64,000 nt of DNA from Parasporobacterium sp. (lineage in GTDB: Bacteria; Bacillota; Clostridia; Lachnospirales; Lachnospiraceae), in the NCBI GenBank assembly GCA_017510065.1, contig JAFWOB010000137.1, positions 1-64,000 of the forward strand. The letters run 5' to 3'. This document shows, one piece after another, positions 13,497-57,785 of this stretch; within the stretch, counting starts at the first letter, position 1; the number at the start of each line of letters is the position of its first letter. The notes beneath the pieces were generated by a model. It was given only the letters and a program-made list of their open reading frames with translations, was not told the DNA's origin and did no database searches. A program made the translations under genes and the position numbers.

Positions 13497-13525
13497 TTGC
13501 ATCCGTGTTTTGATTTTGTTATAAT
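13497..13525 (+). promoter_or_regulatory. Promoter of tRNA-Leu
   Basis: TTGCAT (13497-13502), 17 bases, TATAAT (13520-13525), ten bases before the mature tRNA. Confidence 0.8.
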
Positions 13526-13534
13526 GCAGCAAGC

Positions 13535-13617: not shown

Positions 13618-13618
13618 T

Positions 13619-31229: not shown

Positions 31230-32171
31230 TCAGCTCAGCAGCATGCCGACGCCGCCGTAGATGCCGGCCAGATTTCCTAATGTGGCCAGTTTGATCTCTG
31301 TTCCCCTGGAAGCATGAAATGCGTATTCTTTATAATACTTTTCAATGCAGTCCGTCAGGATCGGTCCTGATTTGGACATGCCGCCTCCCAGAACAAATAC
31401 CTGAGGATCAGCCACACAGGAGATCGTAGCAAGAGCCTTTCCAAGGATCCTGCCTACTTCATCCACCATATGAAGGGCAACCGCATCGCCTTCTTTTGCG
31501 GCGTCAAAGATCACTTTGGAACTAAGCTCCGGAGCATTTTTCAGAACCGTTTCAGCATCCGGATTGGCTTCCAGATATCTTTTTGTGATCCTGGTAAAGC
31601 CATTGGCAGAAGCATACTGCTCGAGGCACCCTTTTTTTCCGCAGCCGCAGCATTCAGTTTCATCATCTCTGGTCGGGATATGACCCAGCTCTCCGGCTGC
31701 GCCGTTAAATCCCGAAACGATCTTGCCGTCCTGGATCACGCCGCCGCCAACACCGGTACCGAGAGTGACCATAACGACGTTTTTATATCCTTTTCCGCCT
31801 CCCTGCCACATTTCTCCCATGGCTGCTACATTGGCATCGTTGCCTGCTTTGACCCTGAGTCCTGTCAATTCTCCCAGGATCTGTTCGACATTGATCACGC
31901 CCCATCCCAGGTTGATACACTTATTCACCGTTCCGTCATTCAGTACCGGTCCCGGCACGCCCATGCCGATGCCTTCCACATCATCCAGGGAAATGTTTTT
32001 CTCATCCATTTTCTCTGCGATTGTGCGGCTGATATCCGGCAGGATCGCAGCACCATCATTTGCTGTTACAGTCGGGATCTCCCAGGTCTCCAGAAGATTT
32101 CCGGTGGTCTCAAAAAGACCCATTTTGACGGTTGTACCGCCTACATCTGCTCCAAATGCGTATTTTTTCAT
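31230..32171 (-). CDS. ROK family glucokinase-like sugar kinase
   Basis: 313 residues. DVGGTTVKMG phosphate loop, LGTGVGGGVI, the catalytic Asp in GNDANVAA, ELGHIP, and the ROK zinc motif CCGCGKKGCLEQYAS. It matches glucokinase rather than a NagC-type repressor because it has no helix-turn-helix. As the last gene of the C-glycoside-type operon it would phosphorylate the freed hexose. GAGGTG precedes the ATG. Confidence 0.9.
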   Translation of the reverse strand: MKKYAFGADVGGTTVKMGLFETTGNLLETWEIPTVTANDGAAILPDISRTIAEKMDEKNISLDDVEGIGMGVPGPVLNDGTVNKCINLGWGVINVEQILGELTGLRVKAGNDANVAAMGEMWQGGGKGYKNVVMVTLGTGVGGGVIQDGKIVSGFNGAAGELGHIPTRDDETECCGCGKKGCLEQYASANGFTRITKRYLEANPDAETVLKNAPELSSKVIFDAAKEGDAVALHMVDEVGRILGKALATISCVADPQVFVLGGGMSKSGPILTDCIEKYYKEYAFHASRGTEIKLATLGNLAGIYGGVGMLLS

Positions 32172-32192
32172 TTTTTCACCTCTGAGGAAGAA

Positions 32193-32227
32193 CAGACAGC
32201 CAGCATATACGAATATGCGGCTGTCTG
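32193..32227 (-). terminator. Hairpin between the DUF6379 gene and the ROK kinase
   Basis: Arms CAGACAGCC/GGCTGTCTG with an inner CATAT/ATATG stem fill the 69-base gap. No U-run follows, so it probably tunes or protects the mRNA inside the operon. Confidence 0.55.
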
Positions 32228-32240
32228 CCTCATTAATAAT

Positions 32241-32687
32241 TTAAACGATGATCATCCTTCTGCTGTTTACATGATGCCCGAATTCCGGCATAAAGATCAT
32301 GCTTTCCTTATCGGGATCCAATGCTTCGTCATTCTGCATGATCGGCGGCATATAAGATGAGGTAAAGCTGAATCCATAGGTCAGATCATGATACCCCTGG
32401 GACAGTCCGCCCGGTTTTTTCACCTTGATCACAGCCGGTACCTGCACAGACCAGTGGGTCTTGAAATCATGCTTCATCTCTTCTGCCGTAAAGTCTTCTC
32501 CCTTTACATTCCAGAGCACATTTTCTTTGGAAATGGACTCGCCGTCGATGATCACGGTTCCCGGACGAAGCTGGGAAAGGAATACTCCCCGGTAATAAGG
32601 AAGACGGACTTTAAACTGAAATCCCGTAACCTCGCCGTTTTCCACGATGTTGCGGAATCCAACTGTCTGAATAACCTGTTTTTCCAT
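32241..32687 (-). CDS. C-deglycosylation enzyme beta-subunit-like protein (DUF6379), copy 1
   Basis: 148 residues, small beta protein without signal. It resembles the DUF6379 beta subunit (DgpB/CarB type) of C-glycoside deglycosylases: VTGFQFKVRLPYYRGVFLSQL, IDGESIS, VPAVIKVKKPGGLSQGYHDL. In the characterised enzymes this subunit binds the TIM-barrel alpha subunit and helps place the 3-keto-C-glycoside for C-C cleavage. The alpha-like gene is immediately upstream (15 bases), SD AAGGAGG. A second beta gene sits at 42801. The family call is from memory of the motifs. Confidence 0.75.
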   Translation of the reverse strand: MEKQVIQTVGFRNIVENGEVTGFQFKVRLPYYRGVFLSQLRPGTVIIDGESISKENVLWNVKGEDFTAEEMKHDFKTHWSVQVPAVIKVKKPGGLSQGYHDLTYGFSFTSSYMPPIMQNDEALDPDKESMIFMPEFGHHVNSRRMIIV

Positions 32688-32702
32688 GTCTCTACCTCCT
32701 TA

Positions 32703-33575
32703 TCAGTCGCCCAGGATACGTTTCATCATGATGTGCTGTTTTCTGAGCATCTGTGTTACTTCATAGCCATCCTGATATTTATCCGCACCTTCATACTCGC
32801 TCAGAAGATATCCGTTCCAGCCATGATCCATCATCACTTTCAGGACTTCCGGATACGGGATCGTTGTCTCTTCAAAATCATCGTTCATATTGATGAACTT
32901 GGCATGGCAGCAGTAAATATAAGGAAGCAGCGGGATGATATCCTCAGGATCGTTTGCCTTGTATAAAGGATCGACCCATTCATGCTCACTGAATTTTGTC
33001 CGGAATACGGAAAAATCCACATTGATGCCGAAGCATTCGGTTCCTGTTTCTTTTGCAAAATCAACGAACTGTTTTACCATATCCGATTTCAGGTTCGTCG
33101 GCGTATGGATCTCCGGCATCATCTTGATACCGAACTTCTCAGCTACCGGAAGCGCGCCTTTAATGATCTCACGCCAGTTAAGGACCGGTTCCAGTTTTTC
33201 ATTGATAACCGGCATCTTTGTTCTCATGCAGGTAAAGCCAAGTCTTGCGGCAAGACGGATATCCCTGCAGAGCATTTCTATAGATTCTTCGGTCGTCAGA
33301 TCTCTATATCCAAGAACATGGGAATCGATCCAGTTACCGTACTCTACCGGCTCGACCTCATATTTTTCACAGAGATGGTGCCAGTTCTCTACCCACTCAT
33401 CGGTTGGATAAGGATAGTTTTCAATATGGGTATTGGCCAGGATCTCAATGCCGTGTGCACCCATATCATGCACATCCTCAAAACAATCCTCCAGTGTCTT
33501 TGTCAGGCCGAATTCCGCGGAATAGCTGTATAATGCCACACCTCTTTTCGGTCCTTTCTTATCGTAACGATACAT
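32703..33575 (-). CDS. C-deglycosylation enzyme alpha-subunit-like TIM-barrel protein, copy 1
   Basis: 290 residues from the ATG at 33575 (AGGAGG 6 bases ahead; an upstream in-frame start includes that SD and is rejected). A sugar-phosphate isomerase/epimerase-type (AP_endonuc_2) barrel. Likely metal ligands are Glu155 (MMPEIH), Asp187 (NVDFS), His224 (CCHAKF) and Glu260 (LLSEYEGA), the set used with Mn2+ in DgpC/CarC alpha subunits. Pairing with the DUF6379 gene next door is the strongest sign of a deglycosylase rather than a simple isomerase. The exact substrate is unknown. Confidence 0.75.
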
Positions 33576-33620
33576 ATGTTCCTCCTGTTGATGACTGATC
33601 AATACGAAATTAAGATCATA

Positions 33621-34688
33621 TCATTCTTCAAACATGATCGCTTTACCGGTACGGCCGGATTCCCGGACCGCATCCATCAAAGCAAATACTCTTCGGCATT
33701 CCGGGATCTGAATAAGGAATTCCTCTTCTCCCCAGTATGCTTTTCTGTAGTTTTCAAAATACATATCATGTGTAGTCTGTGCTGTCGGCAGCGGTTCTGT
33801 TACCAGGGTTCCTTCCGGCGGCGGCCCGAAAGATCTGGTTGGGCCGGCAGCCGTCATCGTACGGGAACCTCCCACATTTTTCAGGAGCTCCGTCTTGCGG
33901 ACGATCTTTCCCTCCGGCCAGAAACCGTCTTCATAGGCAGTTCCCTTGTTGCCGGACATGATCCAGTGACGTTCAAACCAGTGTTCCTTATCTCCCAGGA
34001 AATAGGTTCCCAGTTCGATCTCCGCCAGCACATTGTTGTCAAATTTCATCAGGATCTTGAAATAATCATCTACTTCCTTATTGATGACATTCCGGATATC
34101 TGCATAAACCGATAAGACTTTATGTCCTTTCATCATCCACAGGACCTGATCGATCAGATGCACGCCCCAGTCAAGGAGCATACCGCCGCCCTGATCGATA
34201 TATACATGCCAGTCATGCATATTTCCGTTATGTCCGTAAAGACTGCTTTTGATCGAGTAAACATCACCAAGCGTCCCGGAATCATAGACATTTTTCATGG
34301 TCCGGAAATCAGGATCAAAACGTCTCTGATGATGGATCGTGAATTTCACACCGCATTCTTTCGTTACCCTGATCATGTCATCGATCTCATCCAGGCTCAT
34401 GGCGATCGGTTTCTCACAGATCACATCCTTGCCGGCTCTTGCAGCCTGACAGACAAGATCATGATGATAGATATTATTAGCGGCGATCAGAACAACATCC
34501 ACATCAGGATCTGCCAGCAGTTCTTCGTTGCTGGAATACCGTTTCAGTCCTTCTGTAACATCTTTCAATTGTTCCGGATCCTTATCGGAAAAACCGATCA
34601 GCTGAAAGCCGGGTTGTTTCAGAAGCATGGTCTCATGTTCATGTCCCATGAAGCCGTGCCCTATAATCGCAATTCTGATGTCTTTCAT
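33621..34688 (-). CDS. Gfo/Idh/MocA family sugar oxidoreductase (A)
   Basis: 355 residues. Rossmann fold at the start (IAIIGHGFMGHEH), CEKPIAMS with the catalytic-region Lys, and DWGVHLIDQ with the conserved His/Asp. It should oxidise or reduce a hydroxyl on a sugar ring with NAD(P). In this island it is a candidate for 3-OH oxidation of the glycoside or for reducing the keto sugar after cleavage. It starts 36 bases after the TIM-barrel gene stop (34725). Confidence 0.85.
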   Translation of the reverse strand: MKDIRIAIIGHGFMGHEHETMLLKQPGFQLIGFSDKDPEQLKDVTEGLKRYSSNEELLADPDVDVVLIAANNIYHHDLVCQAARAGKDVICEKPIAMSLDEIDDMIRVTKECGVKFTIHHQRRFDPDFRTMKNVYDSGTLGDVYSIKSSLYGHNGNMHDWHVYIDQGGGMLLDWGVHLIDQVLWMMKGHKVLSVYADIRNVINKEVDDYFKILMKFDNNVLAEIELGTYFLGDKEHWFERHWIMSGNKGTAYEDGFWPEGKIVRKTELLKNVGGSRTMTAAGPTRSFGPPPEGTLVTEPLPTAQTTHDMYFENYRKAYWGEEEFLIQIPECRRVFALMDAVRESGRTGKAIMFEE

Positions 34689-34724
34689 TGGTCCCCCTTT
34701 CTGGCAGTCTTCATAACTGGCTTA

Positions 34725-35633
34725 TCATGAAACAAAGTTTCTCAGGTAGCCTACACTTTGGATGATAGACTTCTTGACTGCCTCTTCACTGCCTTCGAAA
34801 GCCTTGTCTTCGATCTCGATACAGGTAAATCCGTCATAACCAATGTCGGTTAATGCGGAAACATATTTTCCCCAGTCAACATCTCCAAGTCCAGGAAGTT
34901 TCGGGGACATGAACTGCAGCGGATAGCCCATAACACCGACTTCCTGCAGTCTGTCCCAGTAGACCTTGATATCCTTATAATGGACATGGAAGATCTTCTC
35001 CCGGAATTCATAGATCGGTTTGATATAATCGATCATCTGCCATACAAAATGAGATGGGTCATAGTTGATACCAAGATTGGGGCTGTCCAGGATCTCAAAG
35101 ACTTTTCTCCAATTTGCAGGAGTTGTCATGATATTCTGTCCTCCCGGCCATTCATCTTTCGTAAACAGCATCGGACAGTTCTCAATGGCGATCCTGACGC
35201 CGGCTTCTTCAGCATGCCTGATGATGGGAGGCCATATCTCCTTCACCAGTTCCATGTTTTCTTCCACATTTTTTTTGCTGTCTCTGCCGATAAAAGTTGT
35301 GACGAGGTTCACGCCCAGTTTCTTCGAAGCATCGATCAGCTTATGGATGTGTTCCACCGCAGCAGGACCTTTTTCAGGATCCAGAGGATTTGGATAATAT
35401 CCCAAAGAGGAGATTTCCACGCCGTTTTTAGCAAGACACTGTTTGATCTTGCTGACCCTGACATCATCGAGTTTATCCACATCAATATGGCTGACGCCTG
35501 CATAGCGTCTCTCTGCTTTACCCACCGGCCAGCAGGCTACTTCAAGGCATTCAATACCGTATTCGCCTGCAAATTCGCACAGTTCTTCAAAAGACAGATC
35601 TGGCAGGATCGCACTAACTAAACCCAATTTCAT
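34725..35633 (-). CDS. Sugar phosphate isomerase/epimerase-type TIM-barrel protein
   Basis: 302 residues, AP_endonuc_2 fold without a DUF6379 partner of its own. IAIENCP, GINYDPSHFVWQ, HVHYKDIK and CIEIED give the E/D-H/H/E metal set of the IolE/IolI-like group. Unlike the two alpha-like barrels it ends with CIEIED instead of SE(Y/F)EG. Possible role: hydratase or epimerase acting on the keto-glycal or keto-sugar product. It lies between two oxidoreductases in the same transcript. Confidence 0.8.
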   Translation of the reverse strand: MKLGLVSAILPDLSFEELCEFAGEYGIECLEVACWPVGKAERRYAGVSHIDVDKLDDVRVSKIKQCLAKNGVEISSLGYYPNPLDPEKGPAAVEHIHKLIDASKKLGVNLVTTFIGRDSKKNVEENMELVKEIWPPIIRHAEEAGVRIAIENCPMLFTKDEWPGGQNIMTTPANWRKVFEILDSPNLGINYDPSHFVWQMIDYIKPIYEFREKIFHVHYKDIKVYWDRLQEVGVMGYPLQFMSPKLPGLGDVDWGKYVSALTDIGYDGFTCIEIEDKAFEGSEEAVKKSIIQSVGYLRNFVS

Positions 35634-35653
35634 AGTTTTGTCCCCCTGTGGTC

Positions 35654-36772
35654 TTACAGCTTGATCTCTTTCCCTTCTGCAGCCGATTTATAGATCGCAT
35701 CCAGGATCTGGGTCACGACAAATGCCTGCTCCGGCTTTACGCACGGATCTGTATCATTGATGATACACTCCAGCCACTGCTTGCATTCAATGTCTTTCGG
35801 TTCAGAAGATCCGCCTTCAAAGAAAGCGATCGTGCCGGTATCGGACAGGCTCTGCTCTACCAGATTGCCGTGATAGGTTCCGTTCACGATCAGATTGTAT
35901 TCTCTGCCTGTTGCATTTCCGCCTGCCATTTCGCCGACGATTTCAGCTCCGCCCTTTGTACCGCACAGAGTGCAGGCAGCTTCACGAGAATCTTTCATGT
36001 TGATTGCCCATGCAGCCTCCAGGAAGATGGTTGCGCCGTTTTCGAATTTGATGAAGCCGAAAGCAGAATCTTCTACTTCGAAGTTCTTGGTATCCCATGC
36101 GCCGAACATATTGCCCTGAGCAGCGAGATCTGAATGACCGAGTTTTTCAAAAACAGAACCCATAACAGATACCGGTTTGTAATTGTTCATGCACCACAGC
36201 GTGATATCAAGTGCGTGTGTTCCGATATCGATCAGCGGACCGCCGCCCTGTTTGGACTTATCCGGGAATACGCCCCATGTCGGAACCGCTCTTCTTCTGA
36301 TCGCATGTGCCTTAGCGAAATAGATCTCGCCGAACTCATCCGCTTCGCAGGCTGCATGCAGCAGCTGAGTGTCCTGACGGAATCTGTTCTGATATCCGAT
36401 GGTGAACTTCTTGCCGGATTTCTTCCATGCATCCATCATTTTCTGTGCAGATTCTGTGTTGTGCGCCATCGGCTTCTCACACATAACGTTCTTTCCTGCT
36501 TCAAATGCTGCGCAGGTGATCGGGCAATGTGCCACGTTCGGGGTACATACATGAACCACATCGATGCTTTCATCCTTCAGCAGCTCATTGTAATCTGTAT
36601 AATATTTTGCGCCTTCCACGCCATACTGTTCACAGGCTTTCTTTGCGCGTTCTTCAATAATATCGCAGAACGCCACCAGTTCGCACAGATCTTTCTGAGC
36701 AGAAAGTGCCGGTAAATGTTTCTGATTTGCAATACCACCGCAGCCGATAACTGCTACTTTTAATTTTGCCAT
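35654..36772 (-). CDS. Gfo/Idh/MocA family sugar oxidoreductase (B)
   Basis: 372 residues. VAVIGCGGIANQKHLPAL for NAD(P), CEKPMAHN, and GGGPLIDIGTHALDITLW with the conserved D-x3-H. The C-terminal substrate domain is full length. It is the first catabolic gene after the ABC-transporter genes and is the best candidate for the first oxidation step (DgpA-like), by position and general resemblance only. 44 bases separate it from the permease gene. Confidence 0.85.
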   Translation of the reverse strand: MAKLKVAVIGCGGIANQKHLPALSAQKDLCELVAFCDIIEERAKKACEQYGVEGAKYYTDYNELLKDESIDVVHVCTPNVAHCPITCAAFEAGKNVMCEKPMAHNTESAQKMMDAWKKSGKKFTIGYQNRFRQDTQLLHAACEADEFGEIYFAKAHAIRRRAVPTWGVFPDKSKQGGGPLIDIGTHALDITLWCMNNYKPVSVMGSVFEKLGHSDLAAQGNMFGAWDTKNFEVEDSAFGFIKFENGATIFLEAAWAINMKDSREAACTLCGTKGGAEIVGEMAGGNATGREYNLIVNGTYHGNLVEQSLSDTGTIAFFEGGSSEPKDIECKQWLECIINDTDPCVKPEQAFVVTQILDAIYKSAAEGKEIKL

Positions 36773-36816
36773 TTTATAAATCTCCTATCTTTTCTTTAAA
36801 ACTTTTCTTGTTTCAA

Positions 36817-37806
36817 TTATGCAGCCTGGGCGGTTCCATCGTCCAGTTTTTTCTGGTTCACAGCTGCCTGTTCATGGCTGGAACTGATCTTTCTGTTCAG
36901 GAACAGTGTAAATGCCACGGACGCCAGAAGAACGATACCTTTGATCAGCTGGGTCAGACCGGAATCGGCACCAGCCAGGGTCAAGCCGTTGGTCAGGATG
37001 ATGATCGTGAATGCGCCGATGATGATCTTGTACAGCTGGGATTTCATACCGCCGTTGACCGGGATACCGCCGATGAACATTGCCATCATAACGTTCATTT
37101 CAAAGGAAACGCCGACCTTATTATCCACAGCGCCGATACGAACAGCATTGAAAACTGCGGCAAAAGCACACAGTCCGCCTGAAATAATGAACGCGATGAT
37201 CTTGATCTTCGCAACATTGATACCGACATGCCTCATGGCGACTTCATTTTCACCGATACCTTTCAGGTATACACCGTAGGGCGTATAGTTATAAACGAAT
37301 AATACAAGCAGGAACAGAACGATCAGTACAATGATCTTGAACACTGTATTATTGATAAAGGACAGTGATGCAGGAGGCACTGCCGGGGATGCGGCAAAGA
37401 ACAGGTTGTTCAGCGCCTTGAACGCGATCATGATAGCCAGAGACATCATGAAGGTATTGGCGCGGAATTTCGCATTCAGAGTTCCCAGAAGAGCTCCGGA
37501 CGCAATACCGATGATCAGAGCTGCCGGAAATACCAGCCAGGCGCTGGCACCGCCTGCTACACAGGCAAAACCGCCTGCCAGGCCCAGCAATGCACCATGG
37601 GTAATATCCGTTCCGCCCATAGTCGTTGCAAATACCATACCAAATCCGGCAACGATGATCGCAAATCCCTGATTGAACATACTCTCCAGATTGGAAACGC
37701 TCAATATTTTATCAAAACCATCTATAATACCAAAGATAATCAGCATGAATGCCAAGATCAAAAATGGTATTACAGTTAACCACGGAAAATTCTTTTTTGT
37801 CTTCAT
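36817..37806 (-). CDS. Ribose-type sugar ABC transporter permease (1)
   Basis: 329 residues, about nine or ten membrane helices of the BPD_transp_2 (RbsC) family: GGTDITHGALLGLAGG, GTLNAKFRANTFM, VYLKGIGENEVAMRHVGI. The start codon shares one base with the stop codon of the ATPase gene, so the two are translationally coupled. It imports the sugar or glycoside together with the permease at 39317 and the ATPase. Confidence 0.9.
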   Translation of the reverse strand: MKTKKNFPWLTVIPFLILAFMLIIFGIIDGFDKILSVSNLESMFNQGFAIIVAGFGMVFATTMGGTDITHGALLGLAGGFACVAGGASAWLVFPAALIIGIASGALLGTLNAKFRANTFMMSLAIMIAFKALNNLFFAASPAVPPASLSFINNTVFKIIVLIVLFLLVLFVYNYTPYGVYLKGIGENEVAMRHVGINVAKIKIIAFIISGGLCAFAAVFNAVRIGAVDNKVGVSFEMNVMMAMFIGGIPVNGGMKSQLYKIIIGAFTIIILTNGLTLAGADSGLTQLIKGIVLLASVAFTLFLNRKISSSHEQAAVNQKKLDDGTAQAA

Positions 37807-39317
37807 TACAGCATCACCTCGATTATCTTGTCTTCAATAAAGTCTGTTGTTCTGCTGAGCATTCCGGCCATTTCATGATCTTTCATGACCAGCAGCCTGT
37901 CAGACATACCCATTGCTTCCGGAAGTTCGTCAGAGATCAGGATAATGGCGATGCCTTTCTCCTTCATCTGCTTCATAACGCCGTAAATATAAGCTTTAAC
38001 ACCGATATCCACGCCTCGTGTCGGGCAGTCCAGGATGACATATTCCAGATCCTGTACCAGCCAACGGCTTAAGTTGACTTTCTGTTTATTACCGCCGGAC
38101 AGGCTCTTCACTACCTGACCCAGTCCTGAAGATTTGATCTCAAAATCCACCGAGGCTTTGTTGGCCAGTTTATTTACACGGGCGGGACTAAGGAATTTGA
38201 GGGGGCCCTGGGTTAAAAGCCTGACATTCGGCACAGAAATATTCTGCCCGATAGAAGCATCCAGCATCAGTCCGTCCGCATCACGGTCCTTGGACAGATA
38301 TGCGCCGTTGGTCTGGATCATATCCTTTGGCCCTTTCAGCTGTCTGTTTGCCGGAACATATATGATGTTTCCTTTACGGTGCTCGGAAAGACCAAACAAT
38401 GCAGGTCCTACGGAGTGGATACCGCCGTCAGACAGACCGCAGACACCCAGGATCTCACCTTTATGCAGATCAAAACTGATATCATTCAGCTCGCCGGGAA
38501 CTGTCAGGTGTTCTACTTTCAGGACAACGTCCTGCTGATACATTTCCTCCCGGTCTGCACGGTAATAATCTCCGGAGACCTCACGTCCGATCATCAGACG
38601 TTTCAGTTCATCCATTGAATATTCAGATGTCGGTCTGGTGTCGATGATCTGTCCGTCTCGCAGTACGCTGATATGGGTGCAGATCTCCATCATTTCTTCC
38701 AGATCGTGGGTGACCATCAGGATGGTTCCTCCTACTTCCGGAGAAGTGAAATGCTCGATGAATTTATAGAGCATTTTACGATTGTCATGAGAAAGTGCCT
38801 GAGAGATCTCATCCAGGATCAGGAACTTCGGATCAATGGAGAGCGCTCTCGCAAGTTCCAGGACTTTCCTGTTCTCAATAGACATGTTTCCGGCGACACC
38901 GGTCAGCGGGACCTTGGTCAGGTTCCATTTTTCAAAAGTAGCTTCCGCTTCTTTTTTCATTCCTGAAAGGCTTACCAGAGGACCTGATTTAAATTTACCG
39001 GTTCTTCCGAGAAACATATTGGTTACCGGATCCAGAGGTCCTACCACACCCAGTTCCTGAAGAACCATTGCCACATGATGCTCATTGGCGTCCACAGGGT
39101 TTGACGGAGCGTATTCCTGGCCGTTCAGATACATTTTGCCGCTGGTAGGCTTCTGAATACCGCAGATCATGGAGGCAAGGGTGGATTTGCCGGAACCATT
39201 CTCTCCAGCAAGACCCAAGACGGCTCCTCTGGGGATTTCCAGGTTCAGATCATTATTGGCCTTAGTGGCACCAAAGAATTTGCAGAGATGTTCTGTTTTT
39301 AATACGATATCTGCCAT
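37806..39317 (-). CDS. Ribose-type sugar ABC transporter ATP-binding protein
   Basis: 503 residues with two fused nucleotide-binding domains, as in RbsA. Domain 1 has Walker A GENGSGKST, Walker B FLILDE and the H-loop VTHD, but a poor signature (MSIENRKVLELARAL). Domain 2 has the canonical signature LSGGNKQKVNLSRWL, yet a degenerate Walker A (GLSDGGIHSVG) and Walker B ending DC instead of DE. So each composite ATP site mixes good and degenerate parts, as is common in this family. It overlaps the flanking permease genes by one base at both ends. Confidence 0.92.
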   Translation of the reverse strand: MADIVLKTEHLCKFFGATKANNDLNLEIPRGAVLGLAGENGSGKSTLASMICGIQKPTSGKMYLNGQEYAPSNPVDANEHHVAMVLQELGVVGPLDPVTNMFLGRTGKFKSGPLVSLSGMKKEAEATFEKWNLTKVPLTGVAGNMSIENRKVLELARALSIDPKFLILDEISQALSHDNRKMLYKFIEHFTSPEVGGTILMVTHDLEEMMEICTHISVLRDGQIIDTRPTSEYSMDELKRLMIGREVSGDYYRADREEMYQQDVVLKVEHLTVPGELNDISFDLHKGEILGVCGLSDGGIHSVGPALFGLSEHRKGNIIYVPANRQLKGPKDMIQTNGAYLSKDRDADGLMLDASIGQNISVPNVRLLTQGPLKFLSPARVNKLANKASVDFEIKSSGLGQVVKSLSGGNKQKVNLSRWLVQDLEYVILDCPTRGVDIGVKAYIYGVMKQMKEKGIAIILISDELPEAMGMSDRLLVMKDHEMAGMLSRTTDFIEDKIIEVML

Positions 39318-40303
39318 TATTTCGCCACCCCCTTATAGTTCAGACGTGCCAGCACGCCGCAAATGATAACAACTGCACCGAGGATTACTTCCTGCAGTGT
39401 TCCAGCCTGTACGCCCATAATGGTCAGGAAGTTGAACAGTGAGCTGACAAAGATACCGGCTCCTAACGCTCCCACAGGCTCGCTGATCCAGGAATTAAGG
39501 GACATTGCGATAAGCGTTACGGCAAGAGCCTTGAAAATGGTAGAAAGGCTGGCAAGACCGGAAGATGCTGAGATGGAACCTGCTTTACTGATATTCAGGA
39601 TCGCAGCAGCACCAACGATCACCGCACCAATGATCGCGGCTATAATAAGCGCTTTTCTGCGGTTGATACCGACAGCAGAGGAAACACCGGGGTCTCCGCC
39701 GATCGCCTTCAGGTTGATTCCGATAGAAGTACGATTATAGATAAGATAAACGATCACAAAAATGACCACCATGATAATCACGTTGACCGGCCATCTGCCA
39801 AGCACTCTCAGATCATCACCCAATGTGATAACGGCAGAACCTGCTGTCTTTGATCTGGCCTGTGTCCACATTACCATGATAGCCTCAAAGATCAGACCGC
39901 ATCCCAGACCTGCGATCCAACCCGGAATTTTCAGAAATTCGGAACAGAAAACGACCATCAGCTCACAGATCACGATCACGATAAACGGAGCAATGATCAG
40001 TCCGACATAGCCTAGGCCTGCATCCATGGCCAGGATCGCGCCGATGTTAGCGCCTAAGATCACCTGTGCACCGATGGAAAGATCGACCAGACCGGTACCG
40101 AAGATGAACATCATACCCCAGGCAACCACCGTTGGGAACACTGCCTGCGGAAGAATATTCTTCGTGATATTCTTCATGCTCAGCATTTTTCCTCCGGTGA
40201 TCAGATGCATGATAACAATTAGAACAATCAGTAATACAAGCAAAAGGATCTGTTTAAACAGAGGCTTGCTTGTAAATCCTTGTTTTGTTGCTGTTTTTGT
40301 CAT
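39317..40303 (-). CDS. Ribose-type sugar ABC transporter permease (2)
   Basis: 328 residues from the ATG at 40303 (GGGAGG 6 bases ahead; the upstream in-frame start overlaps that SD). RbsC-type membrane protein: DLSIGAQVILGANIGAI, NRTSIGINLKAIGGDPGVSSAVGI, EPVGALGAGIFVSSLFN. Forms a probable heterodimer with the permease at 36817, since two different permease genes flank one double ATPase. Confidence 0.9.
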   Translation of the reverse strand: MTKTATKQGFTSKPLFKQILLLVLLIVLIVIMHLITGGKMLSMKNITKNILPQAVFPTVVAWGMMFIFGTGLVDLSIGAQVILGANIGAILAMDAGLGYVGLIIAPFIVIVICELMVVFCSEFLKIPGWIAGLGCGLIFEAIMVMWTQARSKTAGSAVITLGDDLRVLGRWPVNVIIMVVIFVIVYLIYNRTSIGINLKAIGGDPGVSSAVGINRRKALIIAAIIGAVIVGAAAILNISKAGSISASSGLASLSTIFKALAVTLIAMSLNSWISEPVGALGAGIFVSSLFNFLTIMGVQAGTLQEVILGAVVIICGVLARLNYKGVAK

Positions 40304-40320
40304 AATATCCTCCCACACAC

Positions 40321-40415
40321 ATCCGAAATGACATATTAACTCATTTTCGGATCTTTCGAAGAATGCGTGTCATTCTCCTTATTAATTCGGCGGCACTCGT
40401 TTCCGAGGCCGCCGA
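40321..40415 (-). terminator. Two hairpins between the binding-protein and permease genes
   Basis: One stem at 40387-40415 (TCGGCGGC, CTCG, loop TTTC, CGAG, GCCGCCGA) and one at 40321-40352 (ATCCGAAA/TTTCGGAT). Neither has a U-run. This is the usual layout after a binding-protein gene, allowing more binding protein than membrane parts by partial termination or mRNA protection. Confidence 0.6.
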
Positions 40416-40458
40416 GTGGTTTACTTCATAATGCTGTTTCTGATTAAATAGGTTTTCC

Positions 40459-41547
40459 TTATTCAGTAATGCCATGAGCTGCTGCACGCTCATCGATGCT
40501 GTAGCTGTACAGAGCATTGACGAAATCATCATATGTGCCGTTGACCAGTGCTACAGTCTCTTCCTGTGAGTAAGGAGTTGCATTCAGGAATACTTCTTCA
40601 TAGAGTGCATATTTGTCAGCCGGAACTTCGAACGGAGCAACATCATCGATGTACGGAACGTTGCCGTCAGCATCCTTCAGCTGGTTGCCATGCAGATATG
40701 CTTCCAGAAGAACAGCTGCATAATATCCGCATACCCAGAAGTCGCCGTTGATCATCTGGATCTTGCCCTGTGCTTCATAATCCAGAGCCTGCTTGTCAAG
40801 ACCGGAGGTCACGACCGGGATATCTTCTTCTGCATTGTTCAGTGCGTTGACAGCTGCAATACCGAAATCAGAACCGGTACCATAGATGAAATCAGGCTCA
40901 TTCACGATCAGGGAGTTTTCAATCTTGGTGGTAGCATCATCGATATTCTCGCAGTTCAGAACATCAAGGATCTCGCCGCCAGCTGCTTCGAATTTCGCTC
41001 TGAAGGCTTCCAGACGCGGGGTGTCAGTGGGATCACCAATGGTAGCTGTAGCAACCAGAACGGTCTTGTAGCCCTGCTCGATCGCATAGTCAGCGATTGC
41101 TTCGCCATAAACAGCGTTAGCCGGTCCGATAGATCCTACATAGAACGGATTCTCGCAGAATGATTTGTGCATTTCCGGATCCGGAACTTTATCGTTGAAG
41201 ACAAACGGAACTTCATATTTGGAGCAGATTTCAGCTACAGTCGGATACAGATCCGGAACCGGGAGCCAGATCAGGATACCGTCACAGCCAGCGTTGCACA
41301 TATTTTCAACGTCAGCGATGATCTGCTCGATCTGGAAATTGTCATTGGTTCCCATCGGGGTATCGCCCATATGTGCGATCGCATAGTCTGAGTTGTTAGC
41401 AAGTGACAGAAGTGCATAAGAGCCTGCGCCGAAATAGTTGTAGCCAACCTTGAATCCTTCGCCTGCTTCTTCTGCAGATGCGATGCCTGCGAATGCCGTA
41501 ACGAGCATAGCGCAGGCTGCGATAATTGCGATAATTCTTTTCTTCAT
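40459..41547 (-). CDS. Sugar ABC transporter substrate-binding protein
   Basis: 362 residues, periplasmic-binding-protein-4 (ribose-type) fold. The signal peptide ends ASA-EE at about residue 25; no lipobox cysteine follows, so it appears to be released or held otherwise, which is unusual for a Gram-positive importer. GCDGILIWLPVP and YGTGSDFGIAAVNAL mark the two lobes. The SD AGGAGG precedes the ATG. Upstream is a strong terminator, so it has its own promoter. The ligand is unknown; context suggests a glycoside. Confidence 0.88.
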   Translation of the reverse strand: MKKRIIAIIAACAMLVTAFAGIASAEEAGEGFKVGYNYFGAGSYALLSLANNSDYAIAHMGDTPMGTNDNFQIEQIIADVENMCNAGCDGILIWLPVPDLYPTVAEICSKYEVPFVFNDKVPDPEMHKSFCENPFYVGSIGPANAVYGEAIADYAIEQGYKTVLVATATIGDPTDTPRLEAFRAKFEAAGGEILDVLNCENIDDATTKIENSLIVNEPDFIYGTGSDFGIAAVNALNNAEEDIPVVTSGLDKQALDYEAQGKIQMINGDFWVCGYYAAVLLEAYLHGNQLKDADGNVPYIDDVAPFEVPADKYALYEEVFLNATPYSQEETVALVNGTYDDFVNALYSYSIDERAAAHGITE

Positions 41548-41690
41548 ATTTTTCCTCCTGAAAAATCATGTGTGACTGCCCACTCGGACAATCTTTATCA
41601 GATGTGGTTATTGTAATTTATTTATCTCAAAACAGCTTTTTAAAAGACGCAGTATTTCTGATGATTTTTTTCAGATTTCAGAAGGCAGAA

Positions 41691-41732
41691 AAAAAGAAGA
41701 GACAATTTTTGCAAAATATGTCTCTTCTTTTT
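41691..41732. terminator. Terminator after the second alpha-like gene
   Basis: Arms AAAAAGAAGAGACA/TGTCTCTTCTTTTT with a 14-base loop and U-runs on both strands. It separates the regulator transcript (araC, beta 2, alpha 2) from the transporter operon. Confidence 0.85.
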
Positions 41733-41762
41733 TCATTTTTTGCACTTCAATGATCTTTATCA

Positions 41763-42770
41763 TCAGATCATATCCAGTATGTTTTTATTCATGGCTACAT
41801 AATGAGCCAACTGCTCTTCGCAATCCACTTCTGAATAAAAATGATGCCCTTCAAATTCACTGGCAATAAACCCTTTATAGCCATATTCCACGAATTTCGG
41901 GATCAACTCTTCATACGGGATACAGGGATCATGTCTGTCATTATCCAGATAATAGAATTTTCCGTGGATATAAAATACACAGTCTATTACGTCCCGGAAC
42001 TGTTCGATTCTTGCCGGATGATTGAATTTGCCGAACATCTCTGCAGCATAATGCTTTTCGATCTCTGTGAAATCCCCGTCTTCTATCCTCTTCAGGCAAT
42101 ACGTTTCCCGTTCTGCCGGATTATCAGGAAAAGAGCAATTACCCTCTTCATGGATCTTAACGATCTTGTCCAATGCTTCTTTCCGGCATCCATATTCTAT
42201 TGCCTGACGCAGATACAGAGCATGGGGCATATACTGGAAAATAGAAAAGTCCGGTACAAATCCCAAATATCCCTTTCCTTCTCCTTTCATGATCTTGAAA
42301 TACTCTTTCCACACCGGCACTTCCGGATGATGCGGCCAGTGCATTTCGATGGTAAGCTTCATATCCAGCTGTTTGCAGAAGGGTATCATTTTCCGGAAGA
42401 TCGCAGGCGATATGGCGTGCTGCGTTCTTACCATGGAAAATCCAGCCTTTTTTGCATAGATCAGATCATTTACTGTGTACTGGATGATCTCGGCTTCTGT
42501 CAGATCGCGGTCTGTTCTTGTTCCCATATCAATATAGGCTGACCAGCAAACGGGCTCCAGTTCATATTGTTCCAACAGTCCCCGGAACATATAAAGCCAC
42601 TTATCAGAAGGAAACGGATATTCCGGTACCATCTGCGCCGCGACGATCTCAACGCCTTTATATCCCATATCGTGTACTTTTTTCAGACAGCCTTCCAGAT
42701 CAAGCACTCCATGGATAAAGGGAGTGGTAAGGCTGTAAAGTGATACGCCGATCCTGATATCTTCTTTCAT
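41763..42770 (-). CDS. C-deglycosylation enzyme alpha-subunit-like TIM-barrel protein, copy 2
   Basis: 335 residues from the ATG at 42770, with AGGAGG 10 bases ahead (the upstream in-frame start contains the SD). Same barrel as the gene at 32703 (GVSLYSL, CLKKVHDMGYKGVEI, YPFPSDKW) with the metal set Glu142 (TIEMH), Asp174 (VPDFS), His269 (YIHGKF) and Glu305 (ASEFEG). It carries an extra segment of roughly 45 residues (about 195-245) absent from copy 1, so it probably acts on a different substrate. The beta-like gene is directly upstream (30 bases). Confidence 0.72.
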   Translation of the reverse strand: MKEDIRIGVSLYSLTTPFIHGVLDLEGCLKKVHDMGYKGVEIVAAQMVPEYPFPSDKWLYMFRGLLEQYELEPVCWSAYIDMGTRTDRDLTEAEIIQYTVNDLIYAKKAGFSMVRTQHAISPAIFRKMIPFCKQLDMKLTIEMHWPHHPEVPVWKEYFKIMKGEGKGYLGFVPDFSIFQYMPHALYLRQAIEYGCRKEALDKIVKIHEEGNCSFPDNPAERETYCLKRIEDGDFTEIEKHYAAEMFGKFNHPARIEQFRDVIDCVFYIHGKFYYLDNDRHDPCIPYEELIPKFVEYGYKGFIASEFEGHHFYSEVDCEEQLAHYVAMNKNILDMI

Positions 42771-42800
42771 CTGTTTCAAACCTCCTGTCCGCTTCATCTG

Positions 42801-43220
42801 TTATCCTTCACAGGACCTTGTTTCCATCCGGTCGCTTTCCAGTACCAGATAGGTCCCGAAGTACCCTGTATATGGCACGCGGTGTTTCATATACACACGG
42901 ATAGTATGCTCTCCTTTTGAAAGTCCACCCGGCTTCAGAACACGGATCACTGCAGGATCCCTGATAAACCAGTATTCCCGGAACAGTTCCGGAAGTTCTC
43001 CGATCGTAAACTGCTTACCATTCAGGCAGAAGAATACTTCTGTTTCGGAAAGTCTCTGTCCGTCCACTTCAAAATACAGTTCTTCAATACAGCTCAGAAA
43101 ACAACCGCGGTAGGAAGGGTATTTGATCCGGAATTCATATCCGATGACGACCCCGGAAACCGGGACATTGCAGATCGGTGTATTGCAGATCATGATCTCA
43201 TTGTAAGCAACAAAATCCAT
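42801..43220 (-). CDS. C-deglycosylation enzyme beta-subunit-like protein (DUF6379), copy 2
   Basis: 139 residues from the ATG at 43220 (AGGAGG 7 bases ahead). The same beta fold signatures as the gene at 32241: VVIGYEFRIKYPSYRGCFLSCI, VDGQRLSE, DPAVIRVLKPGGLSKGEHTI. The C-terminal part differs and is Tyr-rich. It is paired with its own alpha-like gene, here in beta-alpha order, opposite to the first pair. Confidence 0.72.
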   Translation of the reverse strand: MDFVAYNEIMICNTPICNVPVSGVVIGYEFRIKYPSYRGCFLSCIEELYFEVDGQRLSETEVFFCLNGKQFTIGELPELFREYWFIRDPAVIRVLKPGGLSKGEHTIRVYMKHRVPYTGYFGTYLVLESDRMETRSCEG

Positions 43221-43267
43221 TTCCACGCCTCCTGTAATAATACATAGTTAGTTATTTACTAATTTAC

Positions 43268-45718
43268 TTATTTATAAATGTGAAGAAGCAGCATCTCATG
43301 CGTTTTCAGCTCTGCCTCAAGGAAAATCTCTCCGTTTTCTGCGGTGCGGTGTTCCATTTGGATCCTGGGGATACAGATATTCTTCATATACTCAATATCA
43401 TTGCTCCGCATAACCGGCTCGAATCCCAGCCGTTTCCATTCATCCATAACACTTCCGTGTTCCCGGTTGACAATATGCCTTTTGATCACATATTCTCCGC
43501 CGGGGATCAGATCATGTACCAGGAATTTCATTGTCACCGGGTCATTGTTCTCAAACATGGTATCCACGTTATATACATCCACAAGATTTTCTTCTTCGTA
43601 TTTATAATTGAAGATCAGGTTCTTGTAATTATAGCACAGGATATAGATATTGTTCGGACTGTTCCGGACCGCAATATATCCATCGCCGCTGGAAAGCAGA
43701 TCATCCCCCAGTTTGGCAAGGAAATACAATGCATAATAGGATGGTTTCGGGATCCCGTCTTTGCTCATCAGGCCGGATCCGCCATGCAGGATACCAGGCG
43801 GCGCATAATGAACAGACAGACGATCCGTTGCCACCCAGAAACAGATCAGATCCGCATATTCCTGAAATGCATTGGTGACCCGCAGAACATTTGTTCCACG
43901 TCCGCAGTGATCGTTCATGGCATTCCGGTTGGAGAGGATCGTTGTCGTTTCCGTAACGAACAGCGGACGTTCCGGTGCATGGACAGCTTTCAGCCGGTTA
44001 GTGATATTCTGGATCTGGTTCATCATAAAATCCGGGTCCATATTCCGGATCTGATTCATCATTAAATCCGGGTCCATATTCCGAAGCTGGTCGGTAATAT
44101 CATCCTGTTCCTGCAGATCCCTATTGGAGGAAACTTTATAAGGAAACAGAAAAACTGAATAAAAATCCGGATAGATCCCCATCTTTTCCCATTGATCCAT
44201 ATCGCATCCGACATCAAACTCACTTCCGTCCAGCAGCCAGTCAGGTCCTCCGACCATACAGCTTTGGCAGCGTGATTTAATGATATTGTAGGAAGATTCG
44301 AACACTTTCCAGTAATCATTGTTTTCGTAATAGGCAAATCCAAGAGTTACTGGGAAATTACCGAATTCGAAGATCCAATGGGATACTTCTTCTTCCCCGT
44401 ACCGGAACATGACATGCTCCATAAACTGGGTCAGAAAATAACTCCACTGATCCAGATTCTGAAACCCCATGTTGTCTTCCTTTCGGAAATACAGCATGCG
44501 GTTATTCTTGATCACGCACTCCGGATGGTCTGTCATATCAAAGAAGGGGTGTACATGAAGACCGGTCAAAAAGTCCAAAACCATATCCACCATATCGAAA
44601 CTCAGCGTTTTTTCATCCGGATCCGCAGCGATCATACACTGTGGGGAAAACAGATTCCACATGCGGATATAAGACAGTCCCAGCTGTTTCACCATCTGGG
44701 AAATCTGTTTCTGTACAGATGAACTGACCATTTTATAAAACGCTCCTATAGTAACCGCTTTTGTGGAAATATGCCGGAAAGGACGGATCTTGTTCTGGAA
44801 AATGTTGATCGTCTCAGAGGGCTTTTGTGCTTTCTGTACCTGGACATGTGTATTCAGGTACTGTCTGATCTGCGCTTCTTCTTCATCTGTCAGCTTTATG
44901 CTGCCTTTTTCCTGGATATTCCGGACACTCTTTTTATACTGGGAAGGCGTTGTCCTGTACAATTCCTTAAAGACCCGGTTGAAAGAAGACGGGCTGGAAA
45001 AACCATTATCGATTGCAATCTCTGTGATCGACTTATTGGAATTCAGTAAATCGTCCACAGCATAATGCATCCTGACCTGATTCACATAATCCGGAAATTT
45101 AACACCGGTAATTTTCTTGAAGATCCTGGATAACGTTGAAACGGACACAAACATACTGTCAGAAAGGCTGACAAGACTGATCGGTTCCTGATAATTATTA
45201 TTGATATAAGTAAGGATTTCCTGGATACGGGCAGAATCTGTAATACTCTTTCCTGTTCCGCCTTCCGCCGCCGTCATCTTGTAATTGCGTACAAGGCAGT
45301 TGATCAGACGGCCGTACAGTTCCATAAAACGGAATGCATCTTTTTTGTCATCGTTCATCTTCAGAAAGATGATCTGATGGAAAATGTCATATAATTCCCG
45401 GTAATTCGGTGTATCGGATGGGATCTGTGCACACCAGAAACTAATGTAGTCTTCGTCCAGAAGATCTGTCATCATCTCATAGGAAATATTGATCCTGCAT
45501 ACAAGAGCATCTCCATTTACATAAATATAATGCCTTTTATTGCTGTTGATCAGCAGGATTTCTTCAGAATGAAGCACATATTCATTCTCTTCGATCACTA
45601 CAGTCACATGACCTTCGATAATGAACAGCATTTCAATATTCCGGTGAAAATGTTCTGTTTCATTTTTTGCACGGAAAACATCACATGTGATGCCTCTGCT
45701 GTCTAATTTCTTGCTCAT
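43268..45718 (-). CDS. AraC family regulator with cupin and GH39-like domains
   Basis: 816 residues. N-terminal cupin (about 15-95, ETEHFHRNIEM), AraC helix-turn-helix pair (about 163-262), then a long C-terminal domain (about 300-816) like a GH39 beta-xylosidase barrel. The acid/base NE pair of GH39 enzymes reads GNF here (Asn454-Phe455), while the nucleophile-like Glu590 remains (FVTETTT), so it is probably a sugar sensor, not an enzyme. Residues 546-569 are two copies of a 12-residue repeat (RNMDPDLMMNQI). It heads the transcript containing the second alpha/beta pair and likely controls the island. The SD is weak. Confidence 0.85.
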   Translation of the reverse strand: MSKKLDSRGITCDVFRAKNETEHFHRNIEMLFIIEGHVTVVIEENEYVLHSEEILLINSNKRHYIYVNGDALVCRINISYEMMTDLLDEDYISFWCAQIPSDTPNYRELYDIFHQIIFLKMNDDKKDAFRFMELYGRLINCLVRNYKMTAAEGGTGKSITDSARIQEILTYINNNYQEPISLVSLSDSMFVSVSTLSRIFKKITGVKFPDYVNQVRMHYAVDDLLNSNKSITEIAIDNGFSSPSSFNRVFKELYRTTPSQYKKSVRNIQEKGSIKLTDEEEAQIRQYLNTHVQVQKAQKPSETINIFQNKIRPFRHISTKAVTIGAFYKMVSSSVQKQISQMVKQLGLSYIRMWNLFSPQCMIAADPDEKTLSFDMVDMVLDFLTGLHVHPFFDMTDHPECVIKNNRMLYFRKEDNMGFQNLDQWSYFLTQFMEHVMFRYGEEEVSHWIFEFGNFPVTLGFAYYENNDYWKVFESSYNIIKSRCQSCMVGGPDWLLDGSEFDVGCDMDQWEKMGIYPDFYSVFLFPYKVSSNRDLQEQDDITDQLRNMDPDLMMNQIRNMDPDFMMNQIQNITNRLKAVHAPERPLFVTETTTILSNRNAMNDHCGRGTNVLRVTNAFQEYADLICFWVATDRLSVHYAPPGILHGGSGLMSKDGIPKPSYYALYFLAKLGDDLLSSGDGYIAVRNSPNNIYILCYNYKNLIFNYKYEEENLVDVYNVDTMFENNDPVTMKFLVHDLIPGGEYVIKRHIVNREHGSVMDEWKRLGFEPVMRSNDIEYMKNICIPRIQMEHRTAENGEIFLEAELKTHEMLLLHIYK
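44011..44082. repeat. 36-bp tandem duplication inside the AraC/GH39 gene
   Basis: Units 44011-44046 and 44047-44082 differ at 2 of 36 positions and keep the frame, giving a doubled 12-residue segment in the GH39-like domain. The near identity suggests a recent event. Confidence 0.9.
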
Positions 45719-45765
45719 AACACCAATCTCATGATAAAATTGTGAAATTTTTTATGATTTTTTGC

Positions 45766-45794
45766 ATTATAACAGATTTCTGCAAGACACTCAA
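45766..45794 (-). promoter_or_regulatory. Promoter of the AraC regulator transcript
   Basis: TTGAGT (45789-45794), 17 bases, TATAAT (45766-45771) on the minus strand, 48 bases ahead of the start codon. Confidence 0.75.
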
Positions 45795-45831
45795 GATAGG
45801 ACACCGCATTTAACCAATCGATTTTTGCATT

Positions 45832-46887
45832 TCAGGATCCAGGTTCATTCCATTCATCTTCCGGAAAGTGTATCCCGGCAGATTTTCTGGCTTCTTCGAT
45901 CACTTCTATCGTATCGATCGTTACAGAAAGCCTTCGTTCAAATTCCTTTGTATTCTTTTCCAACATCAGACGGACAATTTCCCGGATCTCATAATAATAC
46001 CGGTTAGTCGGTCCCGGAACAGTCATATCCTGCAGATCGTATGTGTGGCCCTCCTCTTTTGTTACGATACGTACGGAAACGATTCCGTTCGTTCCTTCTT
46101 TCACATACAGATATCCGTCTTCTCCTTCGATCTGAGCATAATTGACTCCCCAGGTATCTTTCGCCCCGGCTCCGCTGAACAGAAAATCCGGATACCGAAG
46201 GATCATGAGCCCGGAGGTATCTATCATTTCTTTTTGAGGGAGTGCAGCGAGGTTGGGATAATACACTGCTGACAGAGGCTTTCCAAACAGCAGACAGGCA
46301 AAATAGACATTATAATAATTGATATCCATCAGGCTTCCGCCGGAAAAAGCTGGATGAAACACATTGGGGATTTCCGTTTCCTTTTTCTCTTTCAAGGCTT
46401 CACGGAAGCGGTCATACCGGCTGGAATACTGGCTGTAATTGCAAAGTACCAGACGGATCCTTCCGATTTTCGGAAGCATCTGCTGTAAAACTGAGAAGTT
46501 CGGAAGATAAGAGGTCGGCGTCGCATCAATAAGAAACAGGCCTTTTTCTTTCGCCAGAGTTTTCAGTTCTTCTATCTTTGAAGCATTGGCACACATGGGT
46601 TTTTCACAGATGACATGTTTCCCGCTCAAAAGAGCCTGCTCAATATACTTTCCGTGAAGGCTGTTGGGCGATGCGATATAGATACAATCCAAATCGGGAT
46701 CCTCCAGATAAGCCTGCAGATCAGTGAAGACTTTGTCGGCGCCATACTCCCGGGCAAGTACAGTTCCTTTTTCCCGGTCTCTGGAATACACCGCTTTCAG
46801 ACAGATCCCGTCGTTTAGTTTTACAGCATCCAGAATAGAATGCACGATGCTTCCTGTTCCGATCGTTCCGAGTCTTATTTCCTTCAT
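45832..46887 (-). CDS. Gfo/Idh/MocA family sugar oxidoreductase (C)
   Basis: 351 residues. IRLGTIGTGSIVHSIL, YIASPNSLHGKY, CEKPMCAN. At the usual G-G-x3-D-x3-H place it reads SGGSLMDINYYNVYFA, so the conserved catalytic histidine is missing and it may have an altered reaction or substrate. It stands upstream of the AraC gene with the same orientation, separated by the regulator's promoter. GGAG lies before the ATG. It belongs to the glycoside island by type. Confidence 0.85.
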   Translation of the reverse strand: MKEIRLGTIGTGSIVHSILDAVKLNDGICLKAVYSRDREKGTVLAREYGADKVFTDLQAYLEDPDLDCIYIASPNSLHGKYIEQALLSGKHVICEKPMCANASKIEELKTLAKEKGLFLIDATPTSYLPNFSVLQQMLPKIGRIRLVLCNYSQYSSRYDRFREALKEKKETEIPNVFHPAFSGGSLMDINYYNVYFACLLFGKPLSAVYYPNLAALPQKEMIDTSGLMILRYPDFLFSGAGAKDTWGVNYAQIEGEDGYLYVKEGTNGIVSVRIVTKEEGHTYDLQDMTVPGPTNRYYYEIREIVRLMLEKNTKEFERRLSVTIDTIEVIEEARKSAGIHFPEDEWNEPGS

Positions 46888-57399: not shown

Positions 57400-57434
57400 A
57401 AAAAGCTGCGTCATTACCTATGCCGCAGCTTTTT
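57400..57434 (-). terminator. Terminator of ssrA
   Basis: Stem AAAAAGCTGCG/CGCAGCTTTTT immediately after the tmRNA 3-prime end, with a U-run on the minus strand. Confidence 0.9.
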
Positions 57435-57436
57435 CA

Positions 57437-57785
57437 TGGAGATGAGGGGAATCGAACCCCTGTCCGAAATTCTGTCCTCAGGACTTTCTTCCACTACAGT
57501 CATTGAAATTTTGTTTCCCCGGTACGGATCCCCAATGACAGACTTCCATACAAGGTAGCTTCATGATACTCCTGCAGCTGCAAAGCTTAGACTGCAGGGT
57601 TCCCCGCAAGGATGACGCCGGACAGGAAGGCAGCGGGACTCCCTCCGCCGACGAGCCGCTTAATTAAGCAGCAAAAGCTAATTTATTATCTTTAGCGTTT
57701 AGATTTAATTGGATCTTTTAAGGTAGTGACCCGCTACCAGTGGCTTATCCTGCCTCGAAAACCCCGTCGAAACCTGTACATCCCC
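57437..57785 (-). ncRNA. ssrA: Transfer-messenger RNA
   Basis: 349 nt. The 5-prime end GGGGATG pairs with CATCTCC at the 3-prime end, with the tRNA-like T arm GGGGTTCGATTCCCC. The tag frame reads (N)AKDNKLAFAA then TAA at about 57660-57690. The CCA end is not encoded. It rescues stalled ribosomes and tags the product for proteolysis. smpB lies 8 bases upstream and the terminator directly downstream. Confidence 0.96.

Follow-up and report, generated by a model that had tools for sequence, protein, structure and literature searches.

The closest described relatives of the locus analyzed here are the dfgABCDE genes of Eubacterium cellulosolvens, in which DfgAB is the C-deglycosidase (CGD) EuCGD (PDB 7bvs), and the dgpABC genes of Dorea sp. 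PUE (PuCGD, 7bvr; DgpA, 7xr9). Structures, metal and mutants have been published for CGD enzymes (PMC8563793), and DgpA has been described as regenerating NAD+ with 3-oxo-glucose by a ping-pong mechanism (Kim et al. 2024, PMC11239390). The PUE cluster is reported to include transporters as well as accessory genes whose function is unclear (PMC8398226). DfgCD has been described as deglycosylating O-glucosides, and in Catenibacillus decagia homologues of DfgAB, DfgCD and DfgE are accompanied by six dgpBC clusters in one genome; the portion of that account available links no importer or regulator to the clusters (PMC11170127). For an Agrobacterium operon, successive oxidation, elimination, hydration and reduction were proposed, and the operon was likened to that of PUE (Bitter et al. 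2023, PMC10628242). No characterized C-glycoside importer or regulator was found in the open-access literature, a search outside of which most subscription papers fall.

We analyzed a stretch of 64,000 nucleotides from the gut-type bacterium Parasporobacterium sp. (contig JAFWOB010000137.1; hereafter, the window), in which an island at 31230..46887 is very likely, with a probability of about 0.82, a regulated catabolic unit for plant aryl C-glucosides, and probably for O-glucosides as well, as judged from its sequence. The initial annotation had proposed two C-deglycosylases in this island, a reading that is now backed by protein family and active-site residues, by the closest relatives of solved structure and by the gene context. 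Pair 1, with the neighboring oxidoreductases and TIM barrel, is by sequence the known dfg-type cluster published as dfgABCDE: both have the DfgAB-type pair, an oxidase of the DgpA/DfgE type, another oxidoreductase and a TIM barrel, whereas the order in the island is E-D-C-A-B, and a second CGD pair, an importer of the ATP-binding cassette (ABC) type with a solute-binding protein (SBP), an AraC-GH39 regulator and a ROK kinase are added. It should be noted that the names DfgC, DfgD and DfgE rest here on gene content and on DgpA, and not on the E. cellulosolvens sequences. The likeness to dgpABC lies in the DgpA-type oxidase and in the lid-length insert and beta-alpha order of pair 2, and another pair of the same genome (locus L024) is 76% identical to DgpC; however, pair 2 belongs to a clade separate from PuCGD. 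The logic of oxidation, elimination, hydration and reduction is shared with the AtOGE/AtHYD and levoglucosan operons of Agrobacterium (PMC10628242), but the cleaving enzyme of the island is of the CGD alpha-beta type, not AtOGE. The genes are as follows.

45832..46887, minus strand, divergent Gfo/Idh/MocA oxidoreductase, role uncertain (PF01408, E 2.4e-25)
43268..45718, minus strand, AraC-type regulator fused to GH39, probable glycoside sensor (PF12833, PF01229)
42801..43226, minus strand, pair 2 beta, CGDB (PF19906, 118.2 bits, E 2.1e-34)
41763..42770, minus strand, pair 2 alpha, TIM barrel with lid-length insert (solved CGD alphas, ligand residues)
40459..41547, minus strand, ribose-type SBP (PF13407, E 1.9e-18)
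39317..40318, minus strand, ABC permease (PF02653)
37806..39317, minus strand, ABC ATPase with two ATPase stretches (PF00005)
36817..37806, minus strand, ABC permease (PF02653)
35654..36772, minus strand, DgpA/DfgE-type glycoside C3 oxidoreductase (DgpA 7xr9, 515.5 bits, E 8.2e-154)
34725..35633, minus strand, DfgD-like TIM barrel, possibly a 2-hydroxy-3-keto-glucal hydratase (8ro4, E 2.5e-6; 2zds, E 2.2e-17)
33621..34688, minus strand, DfgC-like, DgpA2-type oxidoreductase (9m37, 417.1 bits)
32703..33575, minus strand, pair 1 alpha, DfgA-type, lacking the lid insert (79% over 290 aa to 7bvs_A)
32241..32687, minus strand, pair 1 beta, DfgB-type (PF19906, 131.8 bits, E 1.2e-38; 7bvs_B, 243.9 bits)
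31230..32171, minus strand, ROK-family glucokinase (TIGR00744, 303.9 bits, cut-off 260.35)
30515..31138, minus strand, maltose-acetyltransferase-type O-acetyltransferase (PF12464, PF00132)

The profile matches confirm the gene content proposed initially, i.e., three Gfo/Idh/MocA genes, a further TIM barrel, the AraC/GH39 gene, a ROK kinase that scores above the glucokinase cut-off, and a ribose-type importer. From the regulator through the ROK gene, intergenic gaps range from -1 to 215 bp. The O-acetyltransferase gene lies 91 bp from the ROK gene, is followed by a terminator-like site (30452-30430) and is possibly the final gene of the operon. Just before the regulator lies a promoter-like site (45794-45766), the sole 10-of-12 match of the scan to carry an extended -10; overall, promoter-like sites in the scan showed no clear excess over shuffles (36 vs 30.6, sd 5.4). 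The 45832 gene has a counterpart of 87% identity in one relative (G012), and no close match in the two stretches of relative G001 that were compared.

The two deglycosidase pairs

The two small genes (32241 and 42801) had been described as DUF6379-like; both match PF19906 (CGDB) against a cut-off of 27.6 bits. The opposite order of the pairs holds, too: pair 1 is alpha-beta and pair 2 is beta-alpha. Counted from ATG 33575 and ATG 42770, each preceded by AGGAGG, the barrels carry the same metal ligands as noted before (E155/D187/H224/E260 and E142/D174/H269/E305); the reading frame of pair 2 alpha is open to 42797, and its clear ribosome site favors ATG 42770. The fifth metal ligand, Lys, is present in both (K226 and K271), as are the catalytic residues, His149 and Glu307 in AgCGD2 numbering (H157/E262 in barrel 1, H144/E307 in barrel 2). 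All seven ligand and catalytic residues are kept in 100 of the 104 aligned alpha sequences, five of which are references. Barrel 2 scores 30.3 bits against Pfam AP_endonuc_2, just below the cut-off of 31.1, versus 185.7 bits against the solved CGD alphas. In both pairs alpha and beta are adjacent, and five natural beta-alpha fusions of 464-495 aa occur among relatives (L053, L054, two in L070, and L119; here and below, G and L numbers denote the genomes and loci compared, G000 being the genome of the window), as does the solved chain 8qrz, an indirect sign that alpha and beta may form one complex.

Several CGD-like alphas depart from this residue set. Two (L121 in G028, L122 in G376) have Ala in place of the catalytic His with all metal ligands intact, beside ribose-type ABC genes, and a pair-2-type alpha (L055:2922-3887, G147) has Tyr in that position with the ligands kept. 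Homologues of CGD alphas (<60% identity) are also found on 22 plasmid records, most commonly of Novosphingobium (9) and Enterococcus (5).

The alpha tree excluded identical copies, sequences shorter than 280 aa and those with fewer than 230 aligned residues; its five references were used as fragments as printed. In this tree pair 1 alpha clusters with EuCGD (support 0.848), consistent with its 79% identity over 290 residues to DfgA (7bvs). Its Asp-His ligand spacing of 37 residues equals that of DfgA, i.e., there is no lid, and the pair retains Leu128alpha and Pro115beta, which in the published model clash with a C8-glycoside; EuCGD itself acts on C6-glycosides (Mori et al. 2021, PMC8563793). 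Pair 1, lacking the lid and resembling EuCGD in these two residues, is therefore expected to prefer C6-glycosides.

Pair 2 is different. Between Asp174 and His269 of its alpha subunit there are 95 residues, a lid-length insert comparable to the 84-90 residues of four solved relatives, and its beta subunit is nearest to the solved chains 9m3a_B and DgpB (7bvr_B). The alpha subunit did not group with PuCGD/DgpBC (7bvr) in the alpha tree, but fell into a 13-member clade (support 0.975) without any of the five reference enzymes, the other members being 35-94% identical to it. One relative (L119, G345) is a single 475-residue fusion, with a beta part 39% identical to the beta subunit of pair 2 and an alpha part 43% identical to its alpha subunit, which argues that the two subunits of pair 2 probably act as one unit.

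The absence of reference enzymes from this clade could also mean that pair 2 is no aryl C-glycosidase and acts on a different 3-keto glycoside, perhaps O- or N-linked, the CGD fold and metal site being reused. We consider this rather improbable, because all ligand and catalytic residues are in place, the lid-length insert is as in PuCGD and AgCGD2, and the pair adjoins a DfgABE-type set. The published clash residues, read by eye on the printed alignments, did not point to one substrate for pair 2. The two cleaving enzymes may differ in substrate range, as proposed initially, in keeping with their placement in distinct clades and with the difference in the lid.

Importer and regulator

In 38 genomes chosen for CGDB, some of them related, we found 11 SBP homologues with at least 41% identity, 10 of which lie 1.5-8.8 kb from a CGDB hit; these ten span six genera, with five from the genus of the window, and the sole unlinked one (G013:C440) starts at a contig end. 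At E 1e-60 the SBP is matched in 4 of 299 family genomes, all of them CGDB-positive, and all five hits are near a pair. A second SBP of the window's genome (67% identity) adjoins the DgpBC-type pair L024. This strict linkage between SBP and CGD pairs supports the dedicated importer proposed before and makes it a candidate for transport of C-glycosides. If, instead, ribose, glucose or another simple sugar were the cargo and the importer a neighbor by chance, the generality of the Pfam family (PF13407) and the four weaker homologues (26-32%) located away from any CGD pair would be accounted for; the position of 10 of the 11 closer homologues within 10 kb of a pair, the restriction of strong matches to CGDB-positive genomes and the homologue beside L024 make this very unlikely. 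In SBP homologues of other genera (L039, L066, L090, L094), the printed N-termini have a lipobox Cys, as judged by eye.

The GH39 domain of the 43268 protein, aligned with the xylosidases 1w91 and 2bfg, has Phe at the position of the acid/base Glu and keeps the nucleophile Glu, i.e., it has one of the two residues required of a GH39 hydrolase. AryK and Rsp of Staphylococcus combine an AraC part with a GH39-like part. They are among the best NCBIfam matches of the window's regulator (NF047455, NF033869), but it falls far below the equivalog cut-offs (153.8 vs 850 and 69 vs 400 bits).

Open reading frames (ORFs) of AraC-GH39 size, assigned by size without scanning the AraC part in each, occur within 15 kb of 45 of the 94 CGDB sites, in 26 of the 38 genomes. 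About 3.9 sites would be expected under a simple Poisson model with rounded genome sizes and contig ends ignored, and thus the linkage is not a by-product of many copies. Not included in the count are a CGDB hit that scored under the cut-off (G025) and those PF01229 hits whose ORFs were shorter or very long. Forty-eight of 98 such ORFs are linked, or 48 of 102 when four more of 581-793 aa are added (G013:C177, G104:C2, G207:C16, G028:C38), none of which is near CGDB. In a draw of 150 genomes, such ORFs were present in 10 of the 13 with CGDB versus 7 of the 137 others, the CGDB status being taken from a survey of 397 genomes of which the 150 are presumed to be a subset.

We compared 46 linked ORFs (one gene, L031/L123, is counted twice) with 21 unlinked ORFs from 20 stretches chosen among ~58 unlinked places (one of these, L132, is on a 4.7-kb contig on which linkage cannot be judged). 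Aligned to 1w91, the acid/base Glu is kept in 4 linked and 9 unlinked ORFs and the nucleophile in 40 and 16, respectively; in the 2bfg entry the acid/base position is Ala. The WNEP motif is present in 7 of the 21 unlinked ORFs versus 1 of the 46 linked ones. In the tree of GH39 ORFs, a clade of 18 (support 1.0) contains 15 unlinked and 3 linked ORFs, and the other 6 unlinked ones are scattered among the linked. Since most linked domains lack the acid/base Glu, these proteins are probably sensors in which catalysis has been lost. Activity as a beta-xylosidase-like enzyme, with a linkage that is general to sugar loci, is quite improbable: the GH39 score is far above its cut-off and 50 of the 98 ORFs (54 of 102 with the four added) are not near a CGD pair, but 42 of the 46 linked ORFs, including that of the window, have another residue in place of the acid/base Glu, and such ORFs are in clear excess at CGDB sites, an excess for which other sugar loci were not compared.

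Distribution and history

CGDB hits were found in 35 of 397 family genomes (34 above cut-off) and in 4 of 14 genomes at the genus level. The window's genome has seven, comparable to the set reported for C. decagia; the top counts were 8 and, in a genome where 11 of the 17 candidates were scored, at least 11. An island with two pairs is not a unique trait, as 7 of the 38 CGDB-positive genomes have at least two hits within 20 kb. In another genus (G327, L094), the order AraC-GH39, beta, alpha, SBP, permease, ATPase, permease, DfgE, DfgD is identical. In G001 the island lies at the same chromosomal place and contains three pairs, one of them between the acetyltransferase and the ROK gene.

Leaving aside the 45832 gene, which lacks a counterpart in the G001 stretches, the proteins of the island share 71-98% identity with those of G001, except for the regulator (57-59%). 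Four-fold sites, in contrast, are 33-64% identical over all island genes (40-64% without the regulator), and 34-44% identical in seven flanking genes. Because proteins are conserved while four-fold sites have diverged, selection probably acts on both CGD pairs. Four-fold identity is highest in the permease, ATPase and SBP genes (50-64%), where codon bias or local recombination is possible. A recent transfer of the whole island was considered and is unsupported, given a fairly even GC content (from 0.411 to 0.492 when taken in 2-kb steps, with the minimum over the regulator), the shared location in G001 and the diverged four-fold sites both inside and in the flanks.

Elsewhere in the window, ordinary genes of the fatty-acid-synthesis type (two ketoacyl synthases, biotin carboxylase, short-chain reductase) are located at 2336-9374. 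A tRNA-Leu(CAA) at 13535-13617 (plus strand) overlaps the 5' end of an opposite-strand ORF (12296-13618), and the called start of that ORF is therefore probably too long. A tmRNA with the tag AKDNKLAFAA lies at 57434-57785 (minus strand).

Proposed route and its meaning

The oxidation partner expected initially is present: the 35654 protein matches DgpA over its full length (residues 1-365 of 372). The best match of the 33621 protein, 9m37, is deposited as 'P581a DgpA2 and isoorientin complex structure'. The 34725 barrel matches 8ro4 ('2-hydroxy-3-keto-glucal hydratase') weakly, over 95 residues, and 2zds is annotated as 'Putative DNA-binding protein'.

Under the proposed route, the ABC importer would take up the intact glycoside. 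Oxidation of the glucosyl C3, chemistry that is published for DgpA and DfgE, would fall to the NAD-bound DfgE/DgpA-type enzyme and, as a second oxidase, to the DgpA2-type one. The Mn-type alpha-beta deglycosidases, pair 1 acting like DfgAB and pair 2 with its lid, would then eliminate the aglycone, as their residues suggest. The DfgD-like barrel may hydrate 2-hydroxy-3-keto-glucal; such a hydratase would yield 3-keto-glucose, and so both an oxidant for DgpA turnover and glucose for the ROK kinase. Reduction of 3-keto-glucose to glucose by the oxidoreductase, as published for DgpA with 3-oxo-glucose, would restore the bound NAD+ and make the cycle redox-neutral; the ROK glucokinase would convert glucose to glucose 6-phosphate. 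The AraC-GH39 protein would sense the glycoside via its catalytically dead GH39 domain. The full route to hexose phosphate proposed in the initial annotation thus stands as a supported model, in which the hydratase step relies on the weak 8ro4 match.

Several observations weigh against this reading. An O-glycoside eliminase is another possible identity of the DfgD-like barrel, since the published DfgCD cleaves O-glucosides; of 299 family genomes, 39 have DfgD homologues (E 1e-80), and a CGDB hit is present in 19 of these and absent from 20. Outside its clade, pair 2 has no relative above ~35% identity. The signal peptide of the SBP, like those of its in-genus homologues (L024, L028, L030 and L036, by eye), has no lipobox Cys. 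The SBP match in G327 spans one stop, and the importer ATPase of G001 (L028:15787-17298) is split into ORFs of 179 and 292 aa, by assembly error or a real break. A single operon is assumed from spacing, and the 140- and 215-bp gaps flanking the SBP gene could hold other promoters. Gene order is not fixed, in that the regulator of G001 sits with the SBP on one side and pair 2 on the other, and the acid/base residue is also missing from many GH39 domains that are unlinked; these last two points slightly lower our confidence.

The first of these observations bears on the possibility that the island serves chiefly as a 3-keto pathway for O-glycosides, in which O-glucosides are oxidized and eliminated by the DfgC- and DfgD-like proteins while the CGD pairs form a secondary branch. 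The 20 genomes with DfgD homologues lacking CGDB agree with it, as does the reported oxidation of O-glycosides by D3dgpA (PMC11239390). Conversely, close SBP homologues are found almost only alongside CGD pairs, both pairs are conserved in G001 despite diverged four-fold sites, and the DfgC-like enzyme is nearest to one deposited with isoorientin, a C-glycoside; we therefore regard such a pathway as unlikely, if the most serious of the alternatives. For the DfgD-like barrel, a role in both the C- and the O-glycoside route agrees best with these observations.

In its core enzymes the island is of a known type; beside them it has an importer family, a sensor-type regulator and a pair 2 subfamily as candidate parts. 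That the island is a complete unit for sensing, import, cleavage and recycling, with an SBP family dedicated to C-glycosides, a regulator family with dead GH39 domains and a CGD subfamily with its own aglycone range, is a tentative proposal to which we give somewhat less than an even chance. In plant C-glycosides of foods and herbal products the sugar is attached by a carbon-carbon bond that resists cleavage, and the ability to open them is limited to some bacteria. For this process the island supplies candidates for import and for sensing, together with an additional putative cleaving enzyme, and the SBP and AraC-GH39 genes may serve as markers for locating such loci.

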